From IMG/VR virus record IMGVR_UViG_3300036830_000280, positions 1 to 38,537 of that record: a DNA stretch of 38,537 bases. One strand, written 5' to 3'. The stretch's first letter is position 1, and each line of letters starts with the position of its first letter. The stretch is from a virus. Shown in pieces: positions 31,763 to 36,223 of this stretch. The position numbers and the translations under genes are program-made. Below the pieces are notes generated by a model. That model saw only the letters and a list, made by a program, of their open reading frames with translations, was not told the DNA's origin and ran no database searches.

Positions 31763-31990
31763 ATGCTGAACACAGCCGAACGTGAATTTGTCGGGGAGCT
31801 CGCCGCCCGCGTGCGCAACCTGCGCCTGCGCCACGCCCTCTCCCAGCAGGAGCTGGCCGACACCGCTGACCTGAGCCGCAACGTCATCATCAGCCTGGAG
31901 CAGGGCCACCACCTGGTGCGCCCATTCACCATCCGCAAGCTCGCTGAGGCCTTCGGCGTGCCACTGGTCGAGCTCACCGGCGGCGAGTAA
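31763..31990 (+). CDS. XRE-family HTH regulator (leaderless)
   Basis: This 75-aa protein consists almost entirely of one Cro/CI-type HTH domain (LRLRHALSQQELADTADLS, then ISLEQG and IRKLAEAFGV). Its ATG lies six bases after TATAAT, so the mRNA should start at or next to the start codon. It directly precedes the integrase. It is the best candidate for the protein binding the tandem repeats overlapping its own promoter. Confidence 0.85.
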   Translation: MLNTAEREFVGELAARVRNLRLRHALSQQELADTADLSRNVIISLEQGHHLVRPFTIRKLAEAFGVPLVELTGGE

Positions 31991-32108: not shown

Positions 32109-33859
32109 CCTGGTCGACTGATCCTGCACAAACCGCCGCCTCCTATGAACGCGTGAGTCGCCAGGTCCAAGCCCTTTATGGCCGCGGCTTGCGGCGCACC
32201 GAGCGTAACGTCGATGAGATGGCCCAGGATCTCGGGCTGCTGCTGCCTGACGAACTGCGTTTCCGCGACGGTGTCGATGAGGACGCCAGTGGCGCCCGCT
32301 GGGACCTGCCGCAACTCGAGCGCGTCATGGAACTCGCACGAGCTGGCCGATTCAAAACCCTGCTGGTGTCGACTACTGACCGTTGGACCCGCGACACGCC
32401 CAAGGGCCTCGCCTTCACGCGGCAGGTGCGGGACTACGGGGTGCGCGTCGTGTGGGGCGACCTGCCAGACGTGCCCGACCCCGGCGACGGCAACCCCTAC
32501 GCAGCCCACTGGCGTCAGAAAATGGAGTCTGACGCCTTCATGGACTCTGAATTCGAGCGCGCCCGTATCCGCTGGCGAACCATGAACGGCCGCCGCGACA
32601 AAGCCGACGAGGGTCGTATTCCAGGTACTGGCCGCCCGCCGTACGCCTTCCGCTACGTGCGCGACGACACGCCCAAGCATGCCGTCTGCGGTCTCGAGGT
32701 CTACGAACCTGAGGCCACGATCGTGCGCCAGCTGTACCAGCGCGCCATGACTGACTCGGTCGCCGACCTGCTCCTGTGGCTGCAGGCCGAAGCGATCCCG
32801 CCGCCAGGTGCCAGCCTGCGATTCCGCAAGGCCTGGTACACGGCCAGCGCTGGCCGTCACTGGGAGGGCCATAGCGTCCACCGCATTCTCAGCGACCGCG
32901 TGTACGCCGGCACGTACACCTGGGGTGGCCGCACGTTCCCCGTCACACCGATTGTCAGTCCAGAGATGTTCGAGCGAGTCGTCGGAGCGCGCGCCGCGCG
33001 ACGCCGGCGACGTGGCGCTGCCCGGCGCGGCGCGGTGGATGACCCGTACGTGTTCCGCGGGCGCCTGACGTGCGGGCCCTGCTCCGAGCGTGAGGGACAA
33101 CCCGTGGTCTTTCAAACCAGGGTCACTAACGCTGCGCGCAACCGCTATTACGTGTGTCCGCGACACATGACCGAGGCCGACCGTGGCAGCATGCGCGCGC
33201 CGACCGGCCGTGAGCGGTGCCCCGTGCCCGTGGTACGAGCCGACCTGATCGAGGAGCAGGCCTGGGCGGCGCTGGTGCAGGTTCTGGCTGATGGTGACCG
33301 TCTTCGCGCTGAGTTGGAGGCCGCGCGGGAGCGTCGGCGCCGCGACGATCAGGGGCGTGATGACCGCCGCCGCGCGGTCGAGGGCGAGATCGCCAGCTGC
33401 GAGCGTCGCCTGCGCGTTCACGTCAAGCGACTCGCAGAACTCGAGGCCGACGGTGATGACGAGTCCCAGGAAGAGGCCGCCATACACATGGCCGAGCGCG
33501 ACGATGCCAAGGCGCTGCTCGTCCGACTACGGCGGGAGTTGCGGGAGGTCGAAACCGCGCCGGGCGCGGGGCTCAGCGCGGCCGAGGTGGATGAGTTACA
33601 ACGCCTGTCGGCCGACGTTGCCGAGGTTGCCGACTATGCGACGCCGACGGATCGCCGACGGATCATTGGCCTCGTCGATCTGCGCGCCGTGGTCGGCTCG
33701 GACGGCGAGCAGGTCCAGATTCAGACCAGACCGCGGCGCTACCTGCCGATGCGCTGGAGCGGCGCGGTGCGAGTCTCGCTCACAGATAGCAATTGTGAGC
33801 CGTGCTTCTTGAAATACGACATGCAATTGCTATCACCCATGCTGGCCTTCGTCGCCTGA
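32105..33859 (+). CDS. int: Large serine integrase
   Basis: This 584-aa serine recombinase has a catalytic domain at residues 10-150 with YERVSRQVQ (nucleophile Ser18) and LLVSTTDRWTRD. A recombinase domain follows (about 180-310, with GRPPYAFRY and HSVHRILSDRVYAGTY). The zinc ribbon (about 322-360) has CGPC and a later CPRH. A long coiled coil (about 390-490) controls directionality in this class. It would integrate the phage between attP and attB. The last 25 residues look unrelated to the domain and overlap a 50-bp dyad that is a candidate attP. Confidence 0.95.
   Translation: MTWSTDPAQTAASYERVSRQVQALYGRGLRRTERNVDEMAQDLGLLLPDELRFRDGVDEDASGARWDLPQLERVMELARAGRFKTLLVSTTDRWTRDTPKGLAFTRQVRDYGVRVVWGDLPDVPDPGDGNPYAAHWRQKMESDAFMDSEFERARIRWRTMNGRRDKADEGRIPGTGRPPYAFRYVRDDTPKHAVCGLEVYEPEATIVRQLYQRAMTDSVADLLLWLQAEAIPPPGASLRFRKAWYTASAGRHWEGHSVHRILSDRVYAGTYTWGGRTFPVTPIVSPEMFERVVGARAARRRRRGAARRGAVDDPYVFRGRLTCGPCSEREGQPVVFQTRVTNAARNRYYVCPRHMTEADRGSMRAPTGRERCPVPVVRADLIEEQAWAALVQVLADGDRLRAELEAARERRRRDDQGRDDRRRAVEGEIASCERRLRVHVKRLAELEADGDDESQEEAAIHMAERDDAKALLVRLRRELREVETAPGAGLSAAEVDELQRLSADVAEVADYATPTDRRRIIGLVDLRAVVGSDGEQVQIQTRPRRYLPMRWSGAVRVSLTDSNCEPCFLKYDMQLLSPMLAFVA
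33785..33834. other. 50-bp dyad at the 3' end of the integrase gene, candidate attP
   Basis: GATAGCAATTG (33785-33795) and CAATTGCTATC (33824-33834) are a perfect 11-bp inverted repeat with a 28-bp centre, 50 bp in all. Serine-integrase attP sites are about 50 bp with dyad-symmetric arms, and lie beside the integrase gene. No core dinucleotide can be assigned from sequence alone. The long loop makes a terminator unlikely. Confidence 0.4.
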
Positions 33860-33991
33860 CGCTCGCTCGCGCCGTAGCCGTTCGGCGATCTCGCGAATAG
33901 CTGCGTACACGGGTGCCAGCGCGCGAGTCTCTGGCGCCTCGCGAGGTACGGGGCGCAGCACGTCCGGCGGCTCGGGTGCGGGATCGGCCAT
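33833..33991 (-). CDS. Small protein convergent with the integrase
   Basis: This 52-aa protein has a Pro-rich N-terminus (MADPAPEPPDVLRP) and a helical, basic C-terminus (IREIAERLRRERASG). It lies downstream of the minus-strand XRE gene and a 38-bp element. It overlaps the last 27 bases of the integrase gene. It could be an excisionase-type small protein, but no motif supports this. Confidence 0.5.
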   Translation of the reverse strand: MADPAPEPPDVLRPVPREAPETRALAPVYAAIREIAERLRRERASGDEGQHG

Positions 33992-34020
33992 GCACCCAGT
34001 CTGCGGCGCCAGCAGGTGCC

Positions 34021-34058
34021 CCGGCAGGACAAACCGGGACAAACACAAAATTTGTCCG
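34021..34058 (-). promoter_or_regulatory. 38-bp leader element, copy 1 (minus strand)
   Basis: Read on the minus strand it has CGGACAAA, then TGTCC 22 bases in, TTTGTCC ten bases later, and CCGG at the end. It aligns without gaps to copies at 34569 (32 of 38 identical) and 35051 (28 of 38). It lies between the XRE gene and the gene at 33991, in the same direction as their transcription. AGCCCCCAG precedes it, as in copy 3. Confidence 0.8.
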
Positions 34059-34065
34059 CTGGGGG

Positions 34066-34287
34066 CTAGCCCTGCAGCTCTGAGGGGTCGACCTTGAGGG
34101 CTTTGGCGAGCTTTCGCACGGTCTGCGGCCAGGCATCGCGGCCCGCCTCGATCTTGATAATCGTCGTGCGCGACACCTTCGAGAGTGTGGCTAGCTCGTC
34201 CTGCGAGAGGGCGCGCTTCATGCGGAGCTCTCGCAGGCGGGGCACGTGCACGTCCGACGATGATGGTCTGCGGGACTCGGGCTGCAT
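34066..34287 (-). CDS. XRE-family HTH regulator, repressor candidate
   Basis: This 73-aa protein has an Arg/Ser-rich N-terminus followed by a standard XRE domain (LRMKRALSQDELATLSKVS, then TTIIKIEAGRD and VRKLAKALKVDPSEL). It is transcribed leftward, divergent from the rightward control promoter near 34362. A GTG at 34299, nine bases after a TAACCT box, is an alternative start. It may be the main lysogeny repressor, with the leaderless regulator at 31763 as its counterpart. Confidence 0.85.
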   Translation of the reverse strand: MQPESRRPSSSDVHVPRLRELRMKRALSQDELATLSKVSRTTIIKIEAGRDAWPQTVRKLAKALKVDPSELQG

Positions 34288-34361
34288 AGTGATGCCCACG
34301 TAGCACTCAGGTTACACCCTAGTAGCGCCGTGAGTTCGGATAGTCAAGCGCCGGCATGATA

Positions 34362-34392
34362 TTGACACGTTTCGCTTACGTGGCGCTAACGT
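34362..34392 (+). promoter_or_regulatory. Rightward early promoter with 11-bp spaced ACGT operators
   Basis: TTGACA (34362-34367) is a consensus -35 box; TAACGT (34387-34392) is a plausible -10. ACGT cores occur at 34367, 34378 and 34389, exactly 11 bp apart, within two CGCTWACGT repeats (34373-34381, 34384-34392). A repressor bound there would block the polymerase. The leader that follows is about 200 nt long. Confidence 0.65.
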
Positions 34393-34568
34393 AGAGTTTA
34401 CTTAAGCACGTTCCAGGGCCTGGTGCAGAGGCAGCTGCGCTTACCGCCCGAGGTCAGGGGGCGACCTCCCGCCGGCCAACGCGAGCCTGATACCAGAACG
34501 CGCGTTCTATTATCCTTGCTTGGCGTGGGGGTTACACGTGGGTGGCGAATCGTTCGGTTGCCGGCCAT

Positions 34569-34606
34569 CGGACAAATTTCGAATGTGTCCGCGTTTGTCC
34601 TGCCGG
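34569..34606 (+). promoter_or_regulatory. 38-bp leader element, copy 2
   Basis: It has the same layout as copy 1: CGGACAAA, TGTCC at 22 bases, TTTGTCC ten bases on, CCGG at the end. The final CCGGAGG forms the ribosome-binding site of the ATG at 34612. As RNA, GGACAAA can pair with UUUGUCC or GGACA with UGUCC, giving two exclusive hairpins upstream of the start codon. Confidence 0.8.
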
Positions 34607-34611
34607 AGGCC

Positions 34612-35064
34612 ATGCCGGTGGTTCAGGATGAGCAGCAAGTGCCTATGTTCCCCGGCGACGATCCCGGCAGGGAACTGCTCATCAACGTCATCAAGGCCCA
34701 GGCCGACGGCATACGCACGCTCGCCGCGACCGTCCACGTACTGCAGGATGCGCTACGCAACGGCCACGTCGAGTTCGAGCCCGTCCTGCCAGCCACGCCA
34801 GAAAAACCTAGGCGGCGGCATCTCCCGCAGAACAAAGAGCTGCGTTCGTGGCGCACCTTCGTGGCGTATTTCCAGAACCTGGAGCGCATCGTTCGACGTG
34901 AAAATCACCTGCGTCCCGATGATGTGGTGACCAGGGAAATGCTGTATGCCGTAGGTGCGCCGTCACCGAAAACCATCACGCGCATCATGGTCGAAACGCA
35001 CGGCTTGCGCGCCGATCAGTGGCCGCCGTCGAGTTGGTCGGAGCCCCCAGCGGACAAAAAATAA
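34612..35064 (+). CDS. First early-operon protein, possible HTH
   Basis: This 150-aa protein starts with an ATG preceded by a strong GGAGG that belongs to the 38-bp element; the frame is open further upstream to a GTG at 34423. The N-terminal half is helical. The C-terminal half includes TREMLYAVGAPSPKTITRI, which looks like a helix-turn-helix, then WPPSSW. It is the first gene after the early promoter, so a regulatory or replication-initiator role is likely. Family not recognised. Confidence 0.6.
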   Translation: MPVVQDEQQVPMFPGDDPGRELLINVIKAQADGIRTLAATVHVLQDALRNGHVEFEPVLPATPEKPRRRHLPQNKELRSWRTFVAYFQNLERIVRRENHLRPDDVVTREMLYAVGAPSPKTITRIMVETHGLRADQWPPSSWSEPPADKK

Positions 35065-35088
35065 ATCTGTCCCGGGTTGTCGCGCCGG
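35051..35088 (+). promoter_or_regulatory. 38-bp leader element, copy 3
   Basis: It overlaps the TAA of the preceding gene and lies before the gene at 35119. CGGACAAA, CTGTCC, TTGTC and CCGG keep the positions of copies 1 and 2. It is preceded by AGCCCCCAG, the same nine bases that precede copy 1. Confidence 0.8.
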
Positions 35089-35118
35089 AGGGGTTGCCGC
35101 GGATGCACGCTAGGGGGC

Positions 35119-35298
35119 ATGCGATTGCAGGTGGAGGTGCATCCCGAGGATGAGGAGCCACTGCGTCTGTGGCGGCTGGAGCGGGGGTACTCCGCGGTGC
35201 GGCTGCTGGCGAGTGACCTGCTGCACATCAAGGTTCGGGAAGAGGTAGTCCGACTCGGCCTCGCACTCGAGTCGGAGTCGGTGGCGGAGGTCGCCTGA
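35119..35298 (+). CDS. Small early-operon protein
   Basis: This 59-aa protein has an AGGGGG site immediately before the ATG. It has a short beta strand (LQVEVH), an acidic turn and a helical C-terminus rich in Arg, Leu and Glu. It follows the third 38-bp element. No family is recognised. Confidence 0.55.
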   Translation: MRLQVEVHPEDEEPLRLWRLERGYSAVRLLASDLLHIKVREEVVRLGLALESESVAEVA

Positions 35299-36023: not shown

Positions 36024-36223
36024 GAACGGTTGTTCGTCACCCGAATGGGGTGATGGTCGACGGCAGACTCTTCCTGCGGGACGACTACTACGCCGCGGAG
36101 CACGCCTCGCTGCGCGAATGGGCCGCCCTCGGCGTGCTGGTGGTCGGGCTGGTGATGTGGATCGTGATCATGGTCGGCGGCCTGGTGTGGGTGGTCAGCG
36201 AGGTGCTGCACCGGTGGCGATGA
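36020..36223 (+). CDS. Membrane protein next to the Rpf-like gene
   Basis: This 67-aa protein has a GTG overlapping the Rpf stop (GTGA). It has a polar N-terminus and one or two spans (LGVLVVGLVMWIVIMVGGLVW) near the C-terminus. It is coupled both to the Rpf-like gene and to the nuclease gene. It may help export or localise the muralytic enzyme or act as an early holin. Confidence 0.65.
   Translation: MRTVVRHPNGVMVDGRLFLRDDYYAAEHASLREWAALGVLVVGLVMWIVIMVGGLVWVVSEVLHRWR

Follow-up and report, generated by a model that had tools for sequence, protein, structure and literature searches.

Three gapless copies of a 38-bp element lie in the immunity region of the window, i.e. the whole 38,537-nucleotide stretch of viral DNA analysed here, and the element is read, with a probability of about 0.5, as a DNA operator at promoters lacking a -35 element that would be bound by the product of the p150 gene and would serve as an early-gene switch. 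The copies are located at 34021-34058 on the minus strand and at 34569-34606 and 35051-35088 on the plus strand, and share the layout GGACA-N11-TGTCC-N5-TGTCC. In copy 1 (34058-34021, minus strand, CGGACAAATTTTGTGTTTGTCCCGGTTTGTCCTGCCGG), GGACA occupies 34053-34057 and the two TGTCC half-sites occupy 34037-34041 and 34027-34031, followed by TGCCGG. The half-sites of copy 2 (CGGACAAATTTCGAATGTGTCCGCGTTTGTCCTGCCGG) are at 34570-34574, 34586-34590 and 34596-34600, and those of copy 3 (CGGACAAAAAATAAATCTGTCCCGGGTTGTCGCGCCGG) at 35052-35056, 35068-35072 and 35078-35082. A matrix built from the three copies scored 45-51 on the copies; no other position in the window exceeded 15, the highest of these background scores coming from copies 1 and 2 read in reverse, and the scan gave no other strong matches. 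The two-armed core occurs three times in the window against 0.007 expected, and the full pattern three times against 0.0 in 300 simulated windows. The three copies are real, with a chance expectation of about 0. The scan and the simulation bear out the first-pass annotation, which had placed three gapless 38-mers at these positions and strands, and its statement that each is read in the direction of local transcription is correct. Its description of GGACA, TGTCC and a second TGTCC 10 bp further also holds, except that copy 3 has TGTCG as its third half-site. The repeats are present at the length of 38 bp given there, but copies 1 and 3 are longer, with a fixed-length extension to GCANRCT and a start codon.

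The window is an IMG/VR virus record, and the phages of its group are known only from metagenomes. A search with the window showed no distant DNA matches among GenBank phages, a single-sequence search of IMG/VR with p150 gave no match, and a p150 profile gave none in the genome collection. A p150 alignment search of IMG/VR found relatives. Pattern scans and protein-alignment searches together yielded 16 relatives, all from IMG/VR (L018 (=L013), L019, L020 (=L015), L021 (=L006), L022 (=L016), L023 (=L012), L024 (=L003/L017), L025, L026, L033, L036, L037, L039, L040, L071 and L072), making 17 phages with the window. The pattern matches L002, L004, L005, L007-L011 and L014 were set aside for their differing context or G+C, and the sole match to the DNA pattern in the genome collection (L035) falls in an unrelated coding region of a Dehalococcoidia MAG and was put down to chance.

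Nearly all relatives share a gene order in which xre and the xis-like gene are directed leftward and p150 and rhh rightward. One element site follows xre, a second is close to the 5' end of p150 and a third separates p150 from rhh, and in all copies of all phages the polarity is that of the next gene. The exact two-armed core is absent outside the immunity region in the 10 relatives checked. Copies were thus neither missing from the relatives nor scattered at random: all 16 carry sites at the same place and in the same orientation, supporting the earlier proposal of a polar repeated element tied to the immunity and early genes. Some copies are degenerate, namely copies 2 and 3 in L019, L020 and L033 (copy 1 of these phages being canonical or nearly so), copy 2 in L022 and most of those in L025. 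One relative (L021) has ~1.9 kb between xre and copy 1, and in another (L039) an RHH gene occupies the position of the xis-like gene behind copy 1. L023 has neither xre nor copy 1; at L023:1730-2340 the 5' part of a serine recombinase gene directly joins the LexA-box region of p150, with the xre and xis side missing, an arrangement produced by a deletion or by an assembly chimera. At L025:5420-5445, copy 1 has no third half-site, and a perfect palindrome, CCGCGGACGTCCGCGG, is found at the corresponding promoter position. At L033:5920-5960, a perfect 12-bp inverted repeat of other sequence, CAGATCCGACCA...TGGTCGGATCTG, stands in place of copy 3.

Comparison of copies 1 and 3 among the phages showed that the third half-site is followed after exactly 23 nt by CANNCT in 24 of 24 modules (13/13 copy-1 and 11/11 copy-3 modules). 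The distance from CANNCT to an ATG or GTG is 7 nt in 19 of the 24 and 6-9 nt in the remainder. The 16-nt spacer between GCCGG and GCANRCT is variable in sequence, and the genes behind the modules, xis-like or RHH, are mutually unrelated. The 23-nt distance is kept in L040 despite a one-base shift of GCCGG, and in copy 3 of L025 despite a TGTCC pair 12 bp apart. In the window, the -10-like box of module 1 is CAGACT (33998..34003, minus strand), with the start codon 6 nt on, and that of module 3 is CACGCT (35106..35111, plus strand), 7 nt before the start codon; both are 23 nt past the third half-site. The gene behind module 1 is a 52-aa ORF (33833..33991, minus strand) that adjoins the integrase gene; at this position L013/L018 encodes a Xis-like HTH_17 protein followed by a tyrosine integrase. 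An imperfect inverted repeat, GATAGCAATTG...CAATTGCTATC, spans 33785-33834 at the 3' end of the serine integrase gene of the window and is possibly an attachment-site core or a terminator. Behind module 3 is the gene of a 59-aa RHH protein (35119..35298, plus strand), the first gene of the early operon. A coding role of the element in copies 1 and 3 was rejected, as its frame relative to the downstream start varies among the phages.

No sigma-70 promoter passed a scan with the consensus, and the -10-like CANNCT boxes are poor. CANNCT retains the A and T of the two most important -10 positions. Judged from these constant distances, copies 1 and 3 look like part of a promoter lacking a -35 element, with the element at about -67 to -37. 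Since two of the three sites lie at a constant distance from a -10-like box and a start codon, the polarity of the element would be that of the promoter. The short distance from CANNCT to the start codon points to transcripts that are apparently leaderless, a type described as common in mycobacteria (PMC4633059).

The p150 gene (34525..35064, plus strand) encodes a protein of 179 aa, not the 150 aa of the first-pass annotation, and this protein is the candidate binder of the element. Its start is most likely the GTG at 34525, and ATG or GTG is found in the relatives. A LexA-like SOS box of the GAAC-N4-GTTC type (GAACGCGCGTTC, 34496..34507, plus strand) overlaps the p150 promoter, whose -10, TATTAT (34508..34513, plus strand), ends 11 nt before the start codon; by position, this promoter would also be leaderless. 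The box is a site separate from the 38-bp element. It is kept in the relatives, with GAAC-N4-GTTC at the p150 promoter in 16 of the 17 phages and GCAC in the exception, L026. Its placement over the -10 suggests control of the rightward operon by DNA damage. A second exact GAAC-N4-GTTC lies at 36024-36035, at the end of a transglycosylase-like gene, where 0.5 such boxes are expected per window by chance. Between xre and p150 (34362-34495) there is a conserved promoter-like TTGACA...TAACGT; the ~100 nt after it form a GC-rich leader that can fold, extends to the LexA-like box and is partly conserved in window-type phages. The p150 protein had no match in Pfam or PHROGs, no credible fold match among PDB or viral structures, and no recognised DNA-binding domain. 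In its AlphaFold model, an N-terminal hairpin and a long helix are combined with a helical C-terminal domain that is modelled with confidence; the C-terminal motif is WPPSTW.

Copy 2 lies within this gene and corresponds to codons 16-28 of the 179. In the first-pass annotation, the CCGG end of copy 2 had been taken as a ribosome-binding site. The p150 frame, however, is open and conserved through copy 2 and the GTG start at 34525 is upstream of it; thus copy 2 is not a ribosome-binding site. The protein segment at copy 2, GW..V.LPA.GQ.SNVSA.VLP, is among the best-conserved parts of the family, with W7, P13, G16, N20, V21, A23, V25 and L26 invariant in 13 p150 sequences, and this conservation persists in phages in which the DNA element has decayed. 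In the five phages with an intact copy 2, codons for the same residue are identical in 88% of cases inside copy 2 versus 60% in the rest of the gene, the best other stretch of the gene reaching 77%. Coding and DNA constraints visibly overlap at copy 2. The hexamer CAGGAT (34624..34629, plus strand) of the form xANNNT follows copy 2 after 23 nt and may be an internal -10. Its A and T are kept in 15 of 15 phages, and T-ending codons are the minority choice in the p150 gene (GAT 48 vs GAC 92; CAT 20 vs CAC 60). Four phages have an ATG or GTG 6 nt past the hexamer, and the others have the invariant Met41 codon downstream. An internal promoter for a short p150 starting at Met41 (34645) is possible on these grounds.

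Within one phage, the sequences flanking the half-sites resemble each other more from copy to copy than they do across phages (p=0.0005 for all copies, p=0.002 for copies 1 and 3), as expected if one factor reads all copies, with gene conversion as a possible alternative. The divergence of copy 1 follows that of the p150 C-terminal domain in a Mantel test (r=0.64, p=0.001), a test with small n that is not a phylogenetic correction. When L071 and L072 were included and L022 was omitted, the same comparison gave r=0.52 (p=0.0003); among the phages with a window-type XRE it gave r=0.50 (p=0.003), and for copy 3 and p150 r=0.50 (p=0.002). The signal mainly reflects the split between two phage groups and is gone within the nine window-type phages. 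Further points against the p150 model are the lack of a recognised DNA-binding domain in p150, the poor -10-like boxes, and the canonical or near-canonical copy 1 of L019, L020 and L033 next to altered copies 2 and 3. The genome backbone does not explain the site class, as judged from two relatives: L037 has structural genes 65-71% identical to those of the window together with divergent p150 and sites, and L022, which has almost no structural genes in common with the window and whose terminase is 27% and XRE ~48% identical to those of the window, has window-type copies 1 and 3.

Two neighbouring regulators are serious rivals to p150 as the binder. The XRE-type protein (HTH_3; 34066..34299, minus strand, start GTG 34299 or ATG 34287) is the probable immunity repressor. 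As the obvious lysogenic repressor, encoded between the copies, it could bind at about -67 to -37 and so keep the xis-side and early promoters silent in lysogens, and a site abutting the -35 region could indeed repress. Yet the divergence of copy 1 does not track XRE (r=0.14-0.23, not significant) although copy 1 adjoins xre, and among the phages with a window-type XRE the correlation with site class is r=-0.04. Four phages (L025, L036, L071 and L072) combine a window-like XRE with altered sites, and L022 shows the reverse. Moreover, no such element was found in the xre-p150 intergenic region, where the operator of the repressor would be expected, and a distance of 16 bp (1.5 turns) between half-site centres is not typical of an HTH_3 dimer, so that an XRE operator is considered unlikely. 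A second XRE gene (31763-31987) lies just upstream of the serine integrase gene and also occurs in several relatives. The 59-aa protein, modelled as an extended N-terminus and two helices (mean pLDDT 85.5), is predicted to be a ribbon-helix-helix (RHH) protein, with NikR, CopG, Arc and ParD leading the structure matches (best E 0.18, probability 0.96). It might act as an Arc-like autorepressor that occupies arrays of short subsites in its own promoter, in that of the xis side and within p150. RHH proteins are suited to arrays of short half-sites with helical spacing, and the gene is directly behind copy 3, and behind copy 1 in L039; nevertheless, RHH divergence is no predictor of the divergence of copy 1 (r=0.18-0.29, not significant), which leaves this assignment quite doubtful.

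The two functions suggested by the first-pass annotation, a stoperator and a translational switch, were compared with the same data. A bound repressor that halts elongation at polar sites would agree with the orientation of the sites along transcription, with the position of copy 2 inside a transcribed gene and with the intercistronic positions of copies 1 and 3. However, there are just three sites per genome, confined to the immunity region, and two of them are separated from a -10-like box and start codon by a constant length of DNA, which a block to elongation would not require; the stoperator is thus disfavoured and regarded as very unlikely. As an RNA, the first half could pair with either later half and govern translation. 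The inverted repeat lies in the sense direction with an arm spacing of 19, 21 or 22, and copies 3 of L026 and L033 are perfect, longer inverted repeats of changed sequence; these features also suit a palindromic DNA site under change. The compensatory changes expected of an RNA stem, as opposed to fixed DNA half-sites, were not found: over 19 copy-1 and copy-3 sequences the five outer pairs are practically invariant and two-sided change occurs only at two inner pairs, and the covariation counts were often reached by shuffles (90/500 for pairs changed on both sides). Position 6 is mismatched in most copies 2, and copy 2 sits in coding sequence. The predicted folds differ among the copies (z of -2.4, -0.9 and +0.2), two of the three being no better than shuffles, and an Rfam search gave nothing credible. 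An RNA switch is hence the least credible of the explanations and close to being dismissed, and a DNA operator probably fits better.

In the operator reading with p150 as the most likely binder, the site would consist of three half-sites, an inverted GGACA...TGTCC pair and a further TGTCC about one helical turn on, through which a phage regulator would govern a few promoters around the immunity region. With transcription starting at or next to the start codon, the inverted pair would lie near -57 and the third half-site near -39, positions used by activators of promoters lacking a -35 element. The promoter of module 1 would face leftward to the xis-like gene and that of module 3 rightward to the RHH-led early operon. 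Copy 2 would be the same operator inside p150, where it may either give rise to a shorter p150 or obstruct elongation. On DNA damage, LexA repression at the box-bearing p150 promoter would be lifted, and the p150 then made would activate excision along with the early genes and, through copy 2, feed back on its own gene. The one reason to prefer activation to repression is that the promoters look too weak to function unaided. The fuller proposal, that p150 is the first member of an undescribed, LexA-controlled activator family with a three-half-site operator and leaderless promoters lacking a -35 element, including an internal one yielding a shorter form, is tentative and rather improbable as a whole. 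The module offers a wiring diagram for the lysis-lysogeny decision, with a LexA-like switch, a candidate regulator and three operators whose spacing can be counted. Should p150 prove to bind the element, a family of orphan proteins would acquire both a function and a DNA target, and the element would provide a signature by which more phages of the group could be found and classified.

Activator sites at promoters lacking a -35 element are known from other phages. Lambda CII recognises TTGC-N6-TTGC at -35, with direct half-sites 10 bp apart, and the promoters of P2/186 Ogr-type activators, which also lack a -35 element, carry an inverted pair (dyad) near -55. The element differs from both in the sequence and number of its half-sites, and no CII- or Ogr-like protein was found. 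The stoperators of Cluster A phages (L5, TipsytheTRex) resemble it as asymmetric immunity-region sites whose orientation follows transcription (PMC9283540). They are 13 bp long, number more than 20 per genome and are bound by a two-domain repressor (PMC9283540), whereas the present element is 38 bp long, has three half-sites, occurs at three sites and is tied to promoter-like boxes. The nearest described case is GIL01, a temperate phage under SOS control in which LexA governs the lytic promoters and a small phage activator, gp6, acts at P3; the palindromic binding site of gp6 is centred at -43.5 and overlaps the -35 element of P3, a position like that proposed here (PMC6182141). In GIL01, however, the activator is itself homologous to LexA and acts on a late promoter that has LexA boxes of its own (PMC6182141). 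For p150 no homologue is recognised, and the element, with its three half-sites, occurs at three places. Thus, within a control scheme like that of GIL01, the regulator family of the window is possibly new.
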